Positions 1,516 through 30,399 of a stretch of 33,681 nucleotides of DNA are shown in pieces. The stretch comes from Candidatus Uhrbacteria bacterium. Its GTDB lineage: Bacteria; Patescibacteriota; Patescibacteriia; UBA9934. The notes under the pieces are model-generated. The model saw only the letters and a program-made list of their open reading frames with translations, ran no database searches and was not told the DNA's origin. The stretch's first letter is position 1, and every line of letters starts with the position of its first letter. A program made the translations under genes and the position numbers. The DNA lies in assembly GCA_943357745.1 (NCBI GenBank), contig CALRGN010000004.1, positions 1 through 33,681 on the forward strand, read 5' to 3'.

Positions 1516-4455
1516 TTTTGGTTCTTCAAAATAACCTCCGTTCATGAGTTGAGCTTGTGTCAGTGGCTCTCCGGCACTGGTTGTAAAATTTACGTGCCAT
1601 TTGTTATCAAAAGCTTTAATTGGAGAAATGTGAATTGATCCGATTGCCTTGGCACTCAACCAAACATTTAGCAACTGGTCGGTTTTGGCCATCTCCTTGG
1701 CTAATCTAATAATTTGTTGATCCCTAATACTGGTATCCGCGCTAACTGTTAGCCCATACTGGCTTGGATTTTTATTGATCACTCTCACCAAAACTTGAGT
1801 AATGCCATCTCCCCGACTCACAACCTTAGCATTAACCATCGCTTCCGGCACGGTGATGATGCCAGCTTGATCCGGAACTGGCGAATCGTCCACCACACCG
1901 GTGGTAGTGGTGGGAGTAGTTTCTGGCGGAGTAATTACTGTTGCAACATCATCTTCAGCTTCATCGGTATCAACCGCATCGTCACTCAAACCAGGATCCC
2001 CTGGTTCATACACAGAAGCCACGTGCTCAAGGGTTTGATTAATATTTTCCCCAGAATCCGGACCTTCAGTAATTCTATTCTCCACCCCAGCGCCGGCTGC
2101 GACAACGAGTCCGATCATCTTTGCACCCCGCACTAAGGCCTGGCGCTGCTCTCTTAATGCCTGTTTGGTTCTTCCACCGCCTAAAGTGAGCGCGCCCCAA
2201 TACTTTGTAAAGCCGGCTTTGATTCTAGTGCCGATCCCCTGCTCGGCTCTTTTCTTATCTCCGGTTTGTTTGGTCTCGGTGGCCAATCGACCAGTCAAGT
2301 AACCGCCCAACCAACCAACCGGTTGTAACGCGCCGATCCAAGTATTCTTACCGAACAATTCAAAAATTTGATTGCCCAAAACGATTGCTGAATTACCGGA
2401 TTCGGCGCTAACTTCGGGGCGATTGAGTCTTGGTTCCAATACCTTGGTGAAGACCTGCATGGAAGTGGTTAAGAAAGATTCCCCATTTACAGTTTGAGTT
2501 CTTAAATATTCTTCAACATGCCTAGCTAAAGACTGCTCTAACTCCGTTTTGACCACTTGGTCCACCTGGAGATTGGCGATTTTATTTTTAATTACTGCCG
2601 TCTCCTCCTCAATAATATCCATCAGTTGCCCTCTAGCCTCAATTAAAAGTTCGTCTTCATCATCCGCTATCTCATCCCTGATCTCCTCAAGCCGGTTGAT
2701 AGTATGATTAAGAGTATTTTCAAGAATGGCCAGTTCGCTATAAAACTTCTTGGCCTCCGAACCCTGCATTTTTTTGGCGAAATTTTTGGCGAGTTCAATT
2801 CCTAGCTGTACCCCGCCATAAGTTGCCAATCCTTGCGTGGCGGCAGAAGCCAGACCGAATACGAGATTTCCAGCTACCCTCCGTTTAGAGACTTCGGGTT
2901 TTGTTTCGGTGCCATATCCATTGGGGTGGATTAGTTCCGGAGCCGCGCTTGATGGGGATGGGCGTGATTTTGAATAACCGAAAATACGCCGTGATGTTCT
3001 ACTGAGCATCCCCCATAACCCACCAACCACCGCACCACCGGCCATCTTTACTACCTCCGGATGGGGGTCGGGATGGAATGAGTCACCTTCACGACCATTC
3101 CAATCCCTCGGGTTAGTCGCCCAAGTGGACTCATCATCGGAATCCTCGTCTAATCTTTCAATTACCACCGCTTCAAGCGGTTCATCCGGTTTATCCGGTT
3201 CAATCGGTTCAATCGGTTCATCAGGAAGTTCCTCAATATTGGCATCATCAATAAATGGGACGCCGATATTTTCCGCTCGCTGATTCTCAATTTCTGCATG
3301 AGCCGTTATGGTATTCCGATAAAATACCCCGATCGAATCAACATCTTCATCTAGCGCCGTTTGTTGAACAGCGTTTAAACTGCCCTTAGAGTTTTTGAGT
3401 GCGACTTGAAGTTCCCTAAAACGTGCAGTCGCTGTATTTTTCAACCTCTGGACTTCGCTTTCGGCAGGATGCTCACCAGCTACTAGTCTCTGAACAATCG
3501 CATCAAAATCGGTGATCGCTGCACTAGTTTTGTCAACTAATGCATTCAACTCCGTAAGTGGTGATTCAACGCCGGAATCTGCATTCTCGACCGCTGGCAA
3601 TGTGCCCTCACCGGCTGGTTCACCATCCACAGTTTTGACCGATGCCACAACACCAAGTGCTCTTAGGTCTCTCTGTTTTCTAGCGGCTAGTATTTGGTTG
3701 ATTTGTCTTTGTTGAGCGGCAAGTAACGGTTTTAATCGATTCAATTCTTGAGTGAGCGGAGTTTTGAGTGAGCGTTGCGCGGGCGGGAATTTCACTTGTA
3801 AGGCTTCAGTAGCTTCTGAGAACAGTTCATTATTGGCTCCGAACTCTTGGTTGTAATCCAACTTGTACAAATCTTCACCATTGTAAAAAACTTTACCATC
3901 GTTTAGTTGTTTAATAAATTCAGCGAATTTAGCAGAATTGTTGCCAATCGTCCGCAACAGATCCTTGATGCGACCGCAGTGCGCAGCACATTCAGTCGGA
4001 GTTAGTGTAGTAGTGGTGACTTTTTCAATTGTTGGTGCTGGTTCGGGTGCTGGTGCTGGTTCGGGGGTTGGTTCTGGGCTGAGCACGGGAACGAGTGAAG
4101 ACACACTACCAGTGAGCGATCTTTTCATGTCCTTAGCGGTGAACAACAGCCCTGCAATTGGCGGATCATGCCTAAAATCGCGATTAGTTTTAATAAAATT
4201 ATTAATTAGTACCAAAAGAGCATCGGCGCGGATTTGATTGCTGGGATCAGTTGGTAATAATTCACACAAAGCTAAATGATTGCTGACCTGTAGTTCAAGA
4301 TCTGATAATTCATTATTTAATCTCCGAATAAGGTCTTTGCGCTCAAATTCAGCCTGGAGATGTTTGGATCGTTCAACTGAATCCCGCCTCGCTTCAACCG
4401 CTCTGGCTAAGTTACGAGCAAGTCCATCTAATCTGGTTTCAAACGGTTTTTGCAT
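1510..4455 (-). CDS. uncharacterised 981-aa protein: helical/coiled-coil N-terminal half, Pro/Glu low-complexity linkers, several Gly/Ala-rich hydrophobic segments, distinct C-terminal domain
   Basis: Long ORF with start 14 nt downstream of the 594-aa gene; hydrophobic stretches GGAVVGGLWGML, VAGNLVFGLASAATQGLATYGGVQLG, MIGLVVAAGAGV; no family recognised. Confidence 0.85.
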   Translation of the reverse strand: MQKPFETRLDGLARNLARAVEARRDSVERSKHLQAEFERKDLIRRLNNELSDLELQVSNHLALCELLPTDPSNQIRADALLVLINNFIKTNRDFRHDPPIAGLLFTAKDMKRSLTGSVSSLVPVLSPEPTPEPAPAPEPAPTIEKVTTTTLTPTECAAHCGRIKDLLRTIGNNSAKFAEFIKQLNDGKVFYNGEDLYKLDYNQEFGANNELFSEATEALQVKFPPAQRSLKTPLTQELNRLKPLLAAQQRQINQILAARKQRDLRALGVVASVKTVDGEPAGEGTLPAVENADSGVESPLTELNALVDKTSAAITDFDAIVQRLVAGEHPAESEVQRLKNTATARFRELQVALKNSKGSLNAVQQTALDEDVDSIGVFYRNTITAHAEIENQRAENIGVPFIDDANIEELPDEPIEPIEPDKPDEPLEAVVIERLDEDSDDESTWATNPRDWNGREGDSFHPDPHPEVVKMAGGAVVGGLWGMLSRTSRRIFGYSKSRPSPSSAAPELIHPNGYGTETKPEVSKRRVAGNLVFGLASAATQGLATYGGVQLGIELAKNFAKKMQGSEAKKFYSELAILENTLNHTINRLEEIRDEIADDEDELLIEARGQLMDIIEEETAVIKNKIANLQVDQVVKTELEQSLARHVEEYLRTQTVNGESFLTTSMQVFTKVLEPRLNRPEVSAESGNSAIVLGNQIFELFGKNTWIGALQPVGWLGGYLTGRLATETKQTGDKKRAEQGIGTRIKAGFTKYWGALTLGGGRTKQALREQRQALVRGAKMIGLVVAAGAGVENRITEGPDSGENINQTLEHVASVYEPGDPGLSDDAVDTDEAEDDVATVITPPETTPTTTTGVVDDSPVPDQAGIITVPEAMVNAKVVSRGDGITQVLVRVINKNPSQYGLTVSADTSIRDQQIIRLAKEMAKTDQLLNVWLSAKAIGSIHISPIKAFDNKWHVNFTTSAGEPLTQAQLMNGGYFEEPKS

Positions 4456-28366: not shown

Positions 28367-28996
28367 TTAGAGAACGAAAGTCTCCGCCATAACCTCAATT
28401 GCTCGCTTGGAGAATACCAGGTGGGACGCTTTAAGGAGATCAGTTACATTCAAGCTGTGAGCGTTGATCACCGCGGTTCTCACAAGATTTTTAGCGGACT
28501 GCTTTAATGTCTTATCTTCAGTGGTAGCCACAAATAAAACCGAACCGGTGCCAACTAGTGCTTGTTTTAACACCGAGGCAAACTTTGTTTTGGCCTCTGG
28601 GAAATCAAAGTTCTCTACTGCTGAAGCCGTGCCGTGATTTAGTTTGTCTGTTAGTACCATGGCCAGTGCGGTGCGTTTGAGTTTCTTATTTACTTTAACG
28701 GAGAAGTTAGTGGTATTTCTAGGACCGTGAGTAACACCTCCACCCACCCAAATTGGTGAACGCGAAGATCCATGACGAGCTCTACCGGTACCTTTTTGTT
28801 TCCAAGGCTTTTTTCCGCCACCTCGCACCTCACTTCTATCTTTACTATGAGCAATGTTGTCTCTAGAGTTAGCAGATTGTCCAACCATTACTTCATGTAT
28901 AACCGCCGCTTTTGGTTTAATATTAAAAAGCTCATTTGGAACCGGTAATGTTCCAATCTCCACTCCCTGATTAGAATATAATTTTAATTCAGCCAT
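28367..28996 (-). CDS. rplD: ribosomal protein uL4
   Basis: GGGKKPWKQKGTGRARHGSSRSPIWVGGGVTHGP. Confidence 0.96.
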   Translation of the reverse strand: MAELKLYSNQGVEIGTLPVPNELFNIKPKAAVIHEVMVGQSANSRDNIAHSKDRSEVRGGGKKPWKQKGTGRARHGSSRSPIWVGGGVTHGPRNTTNFSVKVNKKLKRTALAMVLTDKLNHGTASAVENFDFPEAKTKFASVLKQALVGTGSVLFVATTEDKTLKQSAKNLVRTAVINAHSLNVTDLLKASHLVFSKRAIEVMAETFVL

Positions 28997-29607
28997 ACAT
29001 TTCCACCAAAGGGAGTTAAGATGATTTGTCCGCCCCGAGCTCCCGGAAGCGCACCCTTAATAGCAAGGAGATTCTTTTCTACATCAACAGCCATCACTAC
29101 CAGATTCTTAACGGAAACTTTATCATTTCCCATTCTGCCAGCCATTCTCATACCCTTGAAAACTCTTTGAACACCACCAGCGCCAATAGAACCTGATTTT
29201 CTCACCTGATCTTTGTGTCCGTGAGTGGTTGGATGACCATGAAAACCATGACGCTTTACTACTCCCTGGAAACCTCTACCCTTACTTACTCCAGCGGCCA
29301 TCACTAAATCTCCAACCTGAAAAGCGGAGGCGTCCCAACTATCGCCAACGGCTGGTGTTTCTCCAGATTTTATTGGAACTTGGGTGATAGTGCCACCATC
29401 TTTCAGTTCAGGATAGGCGATTGATTGCGGTTTGTTGGCCTTGGTTTTATCTTTTGATAAAACTAAAACCACCGGTTGGCCGGCGGAATCGGTTTGAATA
29501 CTCAAAACACTATGAGGAGTTACTTCCACATAAGTGACAGGAGTGACTTCACCGCTAGCGGCGAAGACCTGAGCCATTGCTAATTTTTTTCCAACTAAGT
29601 ACTTCAT
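28984..29607 (-). CDS. rplC: ribosomal protein uL3
   Basis: MKYLVGKKLAMAQVF; GFQGVVKRHGFHGHPTTHGHKDQVRKSGSIGAGGVQRVFKGMRMAGRMG. Confidence 0.97.
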   Translation of the reverse strand: MKYLVGKKLAMAQVFAASGEVTPVTYVEVTPHSVLSIQTDSAGQPVVLVLSKDKTKANKPQSIAYPELKDGGTITQVPIKSGETPAVGDSWDASAFQVGDLVMAAGVSKGRGFQGVVKRHGFHGHPTTHGHKDQVRKSGSIGAGGVQRVFKGMRMAGRMGNDKVSVKNLVVMAVDVEKNLLAIKGALPGARGGQIILTPFGGNVWLN

Positions 29608-29691
29608 AATAATTGTTCATGTTTGCAAACAGAGGAACGCAAGTAAATAAGAGGAACGGGAGTAATTGGATATTTGGTGCCCTGATAAAAG

Positions 29692-29726
29692 AAAAAACCA
29701 GAATCCGACTGGTGTCAGAATTCTAG
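29692..29726 (-). terminator. intrinsic terminator-like hairpin upstream of rplC (CTAGAAT-U-CTGAC-ACCA-GTCGG-ATTCTGG-TTTTTT)
   Basis: 12-bp stem with one bulge followed by six T on the minus strand. Confidence 0.75.
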
Positions 29727-29988
29727 CCAAAAGAAAGACAACATCTAAACTTTTGGAATTTTTAACTTTTAATAGTCACTCCTTTTAGATATTAGCCCAG
29801 AAAGCGTCGGAGAGGTTTTCCGCCCGAGGGTGGATCTTTCTTTCCGGTTCTTGTACTAATCAGTTGGCTCTTTAGGGACCTCTACAAAAAGCGATCTTTG
29901 TCTTTTTGAGAGGTTCCTTAGCAACTGTCCTAGATACTTTCTCCAGTGGGAGACAGTAACGGAGACAGCTGCTAAAGAACCGTTAAAA
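29727..29988 (-). ncRNA. candidate structured leader/attenuator RNA between rpsJ and rplC
   Basis: 18-bp stem 29912-29929/29964-29981 (two G-U), 13-bp bulged stem 29878-29914, stem 29797-29804/29840-29847, 7-bp stem 29727-29733/29750-29756, then terminator. Confidence 0.6.
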
Positions 29989-30399
29989 TTACATTTTAAT
30001 TTCTAGATCAACGCCGGCGGGAAGGTTCAAACTCATTAAGGCGTCAATTGTTCTTTCATTGGAATTAACGATGTCTACTAATCGCTTGTGAACTCGCATC
30101 TCGTACTGATCTCTAGAGGTCTTATCAATAAAGGTGGCTCTGTTCACAGTGTAGCGCCTGATCTCAGTGGGAAGTGGGATTGGACCAACCGCATCGGCTC
30201 CACTTCTCTCCACTGTTTTAATAATAGTGGTGCAAGCGGAATCAATCAGCTTATGATCGTAGGCCCGAATCTTAATTCTGATCCGTTGCTTTACTTCTAC
30301 CACCAGCTTAGCCTTTGAATCTGGCTTAGCTTTAGGCTCTGTTTTTACCTTAGGCTCTGGGCTATCTTTGAGCTCTGGTTTGATTTTGGCGGTGGGCAT
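29989..30399 (-). CDS. rpsJ: ribosomal protein uS10 with Lys/Pro-rich N-terminal extension
   Basis: QRIRIKIRAYDHKLIDSACTTIIKTVERSGADAVGPIPLPTEIRRYTVNR. Confidence 0.96.
   Translation of the reverse strand: MPTAKIKPELKDSPEPKVKTEPKAKPDSKAKLVVEVKQRIRIKIRAYDHKLIDSACTTIIKTVERSGADAVGPIPLPTEIRRYTVNRATFIDKTSRDQYEMRVHKRLVDIVNSNERTIDALMSLNLPAGVDLEIKM

Follow-up and report, generated by a model that had tools for sequence, protein, structure and literature searches.

The gap between rpsJ and rplC in a Candidatus Uhrbacteria bacterium holds a conserved RNA core supported by covariation and, downstream of it, a conserved intrinsic terminator, and in the relatives where we detect the core it keeps the same place between these two genes. 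We think it quite probable that this gap is an internal attenuator of a fusA-tuf-rpsJ-rplC-... transcript, at which a ribosomal protein (r-protein) from the downstream block raises termination. On sequence comparison, we would assign the rpsJ-rplC element to a new structural class among r-protein leaders, one of the Uhrbacteria/ABY1 lineage and in an unusual position within an operon; we take the Uhrbacteria to belong to the ABY1 group of Patescibacteria. The window, by which we mean the whole stretch of DNA analyzed, is 33,681 nucleotides long (contig CALRGN010000004.1), and all of the features located in it below lie on its minus strand.

The rpsJ stop codon and the rplC start codon are 381 nt apart (29608 to 29988). 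An earlier note, made from the letters of this DNA alone, had pointed to the gap as unusually long and free of open reading frames; the coordinates agree, and no minus-strand ORF of at least 50 amino acids lies inside it. The neighbors, identified by tblastn, are rpsJ (uS10; 29989 to 30399), which lies 5′ of the gap and outside the part that would be attenuated, and rplC (uL3; 28984 to 29607), the first gene past the putative attenuator, which is followed by rplD, rplW, rplB, and the remaining cluster. Taken whole, the gap has a minimum free energy (MFE) of −110.9 kcal/mol, compared with −85.8 kcal/mol in dinucleotide shuffles (4.9 standard deviations lower; z = −4.9; 0/100 shuffles). A BLAST search of the gap against a phage collection gave no match.

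We placed rplC in 96 of 97 related genomes and took rpsJ-rplC gaps from most of them. Gaps of about 200 to 450 nt proved to be the norm in the order and frequent in the class. In other Patescibacteria classes, the rpsJ-rplC gap ranges from 0 to several hundred nucleotides, with terminator-like hairpins in some; at six loci from these classes, some gaps were long and carried terminator-like hairpins, and others measured 11 to 36 nt.

Within the order, 46 gaps share the motif GAAC...GAAGAAAGAUC(n)GAAAACCUUC...GCUUC. This motif belongs to a core domain at 29784 to 29872, defined by a covariance-model match and by covariation, that forms a three-helix hairpin. Its helices are P1a (29856-29860/29791-29795), P1b (29847-29850/29801-29805), P2 (29840-29845/29809-29814), and P3 (29830-29834/29819-29823), with strong covariation in P1b and P2, and an internal loop made of AAAGA (29835-29839) and AAAC (29815-29818) separates P2 from P3. 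The 46 gaps were aligned with plain MAFFT, without a structure model. In that alignment, the pairs with the highest mutual information are nested and belong to helices P2, P3, and P1b, and the pair-count covariation score was 0.324, compared with 0.127 for shuffled alignments, with all slid registers scoring lower. A model-aligned set of 70 sequences, 69 of them distinct, gave a covariation score of 0.432 against 0.147 (0/500 shuffles), a value that leans toward the structure because the alignment was itself fitted to it. In this set, double changes occur in 14 of the 15 core pairs, so that the compensatory changes which the earlier note had proposed to look for in homologues are present, and the core has the covariation-backed secondary structure that marks an r-leader. 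The internal loop is compact and purine-rich, its nucleotides are conserved, and it is closed by a noncanonical pair that covaries from A.A to U.U.

For the same part of the gap, the earlier note had drawn a helix between CCGGAAAG and CUUUCUGG (29840-29847/29797-29804). This is indeed the MFE helix in the window, but it lacks covariation in the 46 relatives, where it pairs in 60% of cells and scores 0.128, compared with 0.109 when shuffled, and we rejected it as the conserved fold. In the window, P2 itself contains a single A.C mismatch, and in this species the RNA may therefore alternate between the MFE helix and the conserved fold.

The core is specific to its locus. A covariance model, R1, built from the 46 relatives and thus trained on the order alone, found a single match in the window's genome (E = 2.9e-11), at the core. 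Over 288 genomes of the class, R1 never matched more than once in a genome, and every one of the 30 matches examined for position sits between rpsJ and rplC, including those in genomes outside the training order. Model R2 gave 55 class matches with E < 0.002, one per genome. Although the class-wide covariance search was blind to position, all 55 lie at rpsJ-rplC, in one case (G078) with only the rpsJ side visible since the contig stops before rplC, and the best R2 match elsewhere had E = 0.009. A consistent location before r-protein genes, as expected of an r-leader, is thus seen in 55/55 matches at that threshold. An exact-pattern scan of named genomes returned 37 stretches. Of these, 30 lie at rpsJ or rplC, mostly under the label Candidatus Uhrbacteria, which places the organism with that group; the other 7, from outside the Patescibacteria, lie away from both genes and were discarded.

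At E ≤ 0.1, the core was detected in 60 of the 288 class genomes, about one-fifth of the sample. Four weak matches outside the class in the phylum sample were also set aside, none being at rpsJ-rplC and their number being that expected by chance. With the core seen within the class and no match at the locus beyond it, the recognizable core belongs to some members of a single class. The 228 class genomes without a detectable core have gaps that are mostly long, with a terminator at the end. We looked at six loci of this kind in class members, and their gaps were structured and terminator-ended; further divergent leader types may therefore exist at rpsJ-rplC. At least one class member (G092; locus at contig C9, 36500-40100) has lost the element, its gap being only 10 nt. 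A terminator-like hairpin occurs instead in the tuf-rpsJ gap of that genome.

Downstream of the core, at 29687 to 29726, lies an intrinsic terminator hairpin (P5) with a U-run, just where the earlier note had placed one. The sequence of its basal stem, CUAGAAG/CUUCURG, is conserved, and a C.A mismatch at the eighth pair recurs in 28 of 46 gaps. A hairpin plus U-run was found downstream in 77 of 82 homologous gaps, compared with 18 to 24 in shuffles, so that an intrinsic terminator stands between the leader and the first gene that would be regulated. No genome has more than one match to the exact stem pattern, and every match checked for position lies at rpsJ-rplC; we therefore rejected the idea that CUAGAAG/CUUCURG is a general, genome-wide terminator signature.

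The terminator is adjoined by a further hairpin, P4 (CCAAAAG/CUUUUGG; 29727 to 29756). The earlier note had read this pairing as an antiterminator that occludes the 5′ arm of the terminator. P4 does not exclude the terminator, however, and the complementarity of the terminator 5′ arm to the upstream leader is at chance level (−9.2 kcal/mol, compared with −9.1 kcal/mol in shuffles). Abutting hairpins upstream of the terminator are found in many relatives, with a mean stem of 5.6 compared with 5.1 in shuffles, slightly above chance. The complementarity scan of leaders from the relatives thus gave no mutually exclusive antiterminator. Such an antiterminator is typical of many attenuators but is dispensable where a protein stabilizes the terminator. 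The earlier proposal of an attenuator after S10 consequently stands as regards a conserved leader and a terminator placed past rpsJ and before rplC, but not as regards the alternative pairings and the antiterminator.

Two more hairpins predicted in the earlier note, both 5′ of the core, form as described. The first is a long hairpin immediately past the rpsJ stop (29912 to 29981), with 18-bp arms at 29964-29981 and 29912-29929. Many relatives have long hairpins of unrelated sequence just past rpsJ, and in others, whose core begins 4 to 33 nt past rpsJ, the hairpin is absent. We regard it as accessory, possibly an mRNA 3′-end or processing stem. The second hairpin (29879 to 29913) was seen in the window's genome alone among the genomes inspected, no counterpart being recognized in the gaps of the relatives. 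An alternative pairing of GGUUCUUUAG with CUAAAGAGCC, also put forward in the earlier note, can form in the window, but the relatives show no conservation of the region 5′ of the core.

Immediately 3′ of the core is a Shine-Dalgarno (SD)-like GGAG (29779 to 29782) with no start codon behind it. GGAG occurs 15 to 30 nt past the core in 41 of 64 leaders, compared with an expectation of 6.6 taken from other stretches of these gaps, and the organism's 16S rRNA retains CCUCCU. An ATG, GTG, or TTG codon follows 3 to 11 nt behind the GGAG in only eight leaders; with the start codon this inconsistent, we rejected a leader peptide. The SD sequence of rplC itself is present in 3/64. Closer to rplC, at 29615 to 29638, the window has a hairpin, GUUCCUCUG...CAUGAAC, that is restricted to one family. 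In nine genomes of this family, it takes the form GUUCCWCUG...CAUGAAC and lies 7 to 12 nt before the rplC ATG, and it is possibly a translational control element of rplC.

The spacing of the element bears on how rplC is transcribed. The distance from the end of the terminator to the rplC start is 8 to 30 nt in 28 of 62 leaders, and 15 genomes have a core that begins no more than 35 nt past the rpsJ stop. Eight genomes are tight at both ends, with the core at most 33 nt past the rpsJ stop and the end of the terminator at most 30 nt before rplC, leaving no room for a promoter before the core or past the terminator. RNA polymerase must then cross the terminator to reach rplC, presumably coming from tuf-rpsJ, and attenuation is the natural reading; a promoter within the leader itself is the remaining loophole in this argument. 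An independent rplC promoter, which the earlier note had named as a threat to its proposal, is excluded downstream of the terminator by the spacing in many relatives. These distances also tell against the terminator being the boundary of a tuf-rpsJ operon, with an rplC promoter in the gap and a core that is a 5′ untranslated region element or an artifact of the promoter region. The length of the gap would suit such a boundary, as would a single sigma-70-like sequence in the window, a weak match (9/12) in the correct orientation, but the number of promoter matches there is about that of chance (3, compared with 1.7 expected), and we regard this explanation as very unlikely.

A terminator that is crossed might also be unregulated, with constitutive partial termination setting the stoichiometry of the genes from rplC onward relative to tuf-rpsJ and no ligand involved. 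EF-Tu is required in excess over r-proteins. An archaeon uses internal terminators within its r-protein operons to set such expression ratios (PMC10450193). The finding of no antiterminator and the retention of terminators in class members without a recognizable core would agree with an arrangement of this kind, but it leaves unaccounted for a separate upstream domain with a conserved loop, strong covariation, and a constant place in 55 genomes, and we think it unlikely. More specific, and in our view doubtful, is an attenuator with two domains, whose protein-binding site extends into the terminator hairpin and at which uL3 controls termination by direct stabilization, without an alternative fold. 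This would explain why the terminator stem is conserved in sequence, conserved C.A mismatch included. We know of no r-leader for uL3. The core might, on the other hand, be an aptamer whose ligand is no r-protein but, for example, a small molecule, or a sensor of translation status, with the GGAG recruiting the 30S subunit. The compact, conserved internal loop would fit an aptamer, as would a GGAG that is enriched in one position, has no start codon behind it, and occurs in an organism with an intact CCUCCU. However, the element is found solely ahead of r-protein genes, a setting in which the ligand of a known r-leader is a protein from the block itself (PMC7247131), and another kind of ligand seems to us highly improbable.

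In the regulated attenuation that we favor, RNA polymerase arriving from tuf-rpsJ would transcribe core helices P1 to P3 and then terminator P5, ahead of rplC. An r-protein in excess over rRNA would bind the core, possibly together with the conserved stem of the terminator, leading to more termination; expression of the S10-spc block would be lowered, and production of EF-Tu and S10 would continue. Since we found no mutually exclusive antiterminator, the protein may stabilize the hairpin or a paused polymerase, with no switch between two structures, as uL4 may do with NusA in E. coli. That the terminator is functional and regulated, and that its ligand is an r-protein, we infer. Several results count against this reading: the antiterminator scan at chance level, the failure to find a convincing rRNA-like site, the many class genomes in which the core was not detected, and the loss of the element in G092. 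By analogy with known leaders, control is probably autogenous, through an r-protein of the block from rplC onward. Precedent makes uL4 the likeliest candidate, followed by uL3 as the product of the first gene, and the "prior ligand" rule for r-leaders also favors uL4 (PMC7247131). The element would probably let the cell shut off a large r-protein block while EF-Tu and S10 are still made, since a feedback point past rpsJ separates these two from the rest of the S10-spc block and would spare them. S10 is also the antitermination factor NusE. The regulation of ribosome synthesis is almost unstudied in Patescibacteria, and our searches of open-license papers found no described r-protein leader for this group. 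The element offers a testable target for work on RNA-protein recognition and on the balance of ribosome components in reduced genomes with few regulators.

We compared the element with known systems. No Rfam 15 covariance model matched the gap at gathering or relaxed thresholds, which answers a check suggested in the earlier note; the E. coli S10 leader is likewise without an Rfam family, so this absence alone is no proof of novelty. The E. coli S10 operon is controlled by uL4-mediated attenuation (PMC10931766). Its leader resembles the Uhrbacteria element in serving the same gene block (rplC-rplD-rplW-rplB...) and in combining a structured RNA with a downstream attenuator hairpin and its U-run, and its logic, r-protein feedback on transcription (PMC10931766), is likely the same here. 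The E. coli leader, however, lies upstream of rpsJ, and the E. coli rpsJ-rplC gap is 32 nt, whereas the Uhrbacteria element lies past rpsJ and S10 would escape control. A candidate Firmicutes S10 r-leader in the same gene neighborhood (PMC7247131) also differs in sitting before rpsJ, in the tuf-rpsJ gap. R2 found only noise in the E. coli S10 region (best score, 6.6 bits) and in the Bacillus pumilus tuf-rpsJ region (best score, 11.2 bits, inside rplC), and thus no homologous structure in either.

The B. subtilis rplJL leader, at which the r-protein complex L10(L12)4 exerts autogenous attenuation at an intrinsic terminator (PMC4538822), works as we propose for the Uhrbacteria leader. It belongs to another operon and is another RNA, however, and it has a defined antiterminator and anti-antiterminator, neither of which we detected here. 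Similarly placed is a candidate Archaeoglobi L4 r-leader ahead of rplC-rplD-rplW-rplB, which was rated borderline and assigned to L4 by precedent (PMC7247131). It is archaeal and, like the Uhrbacteria element, precedes rplC. Full-text searches of the open-license literature returned no description of an rpsJ-rplC element, and a description elsewhere is possible.

We also looked for rRNA mimicry. Scans of the organism's 23S and 16S rRNAs for the core internal loop gave no convincing site, nor did the Rfam 23S alignments, which were covered apart from model positions ~2003 to 2151 and some alignment ends. A permuted likeness of the core to 23S helix 97 (AUAA/GAAG) was weak, and a helix-97-like loop pattern occurred in 1/14 core-less gaps, compared with 1.2 in shuffles; as this is at chance level, we make no claim of mimicry. 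The organism's 23S gene (contig C8, 14877-18660) is itself long, at 3784 bases, compared with a model of 2925 positions, and has a large insert near locus positions 2250 to 3080 that is probably an intron or an intervening sequence.
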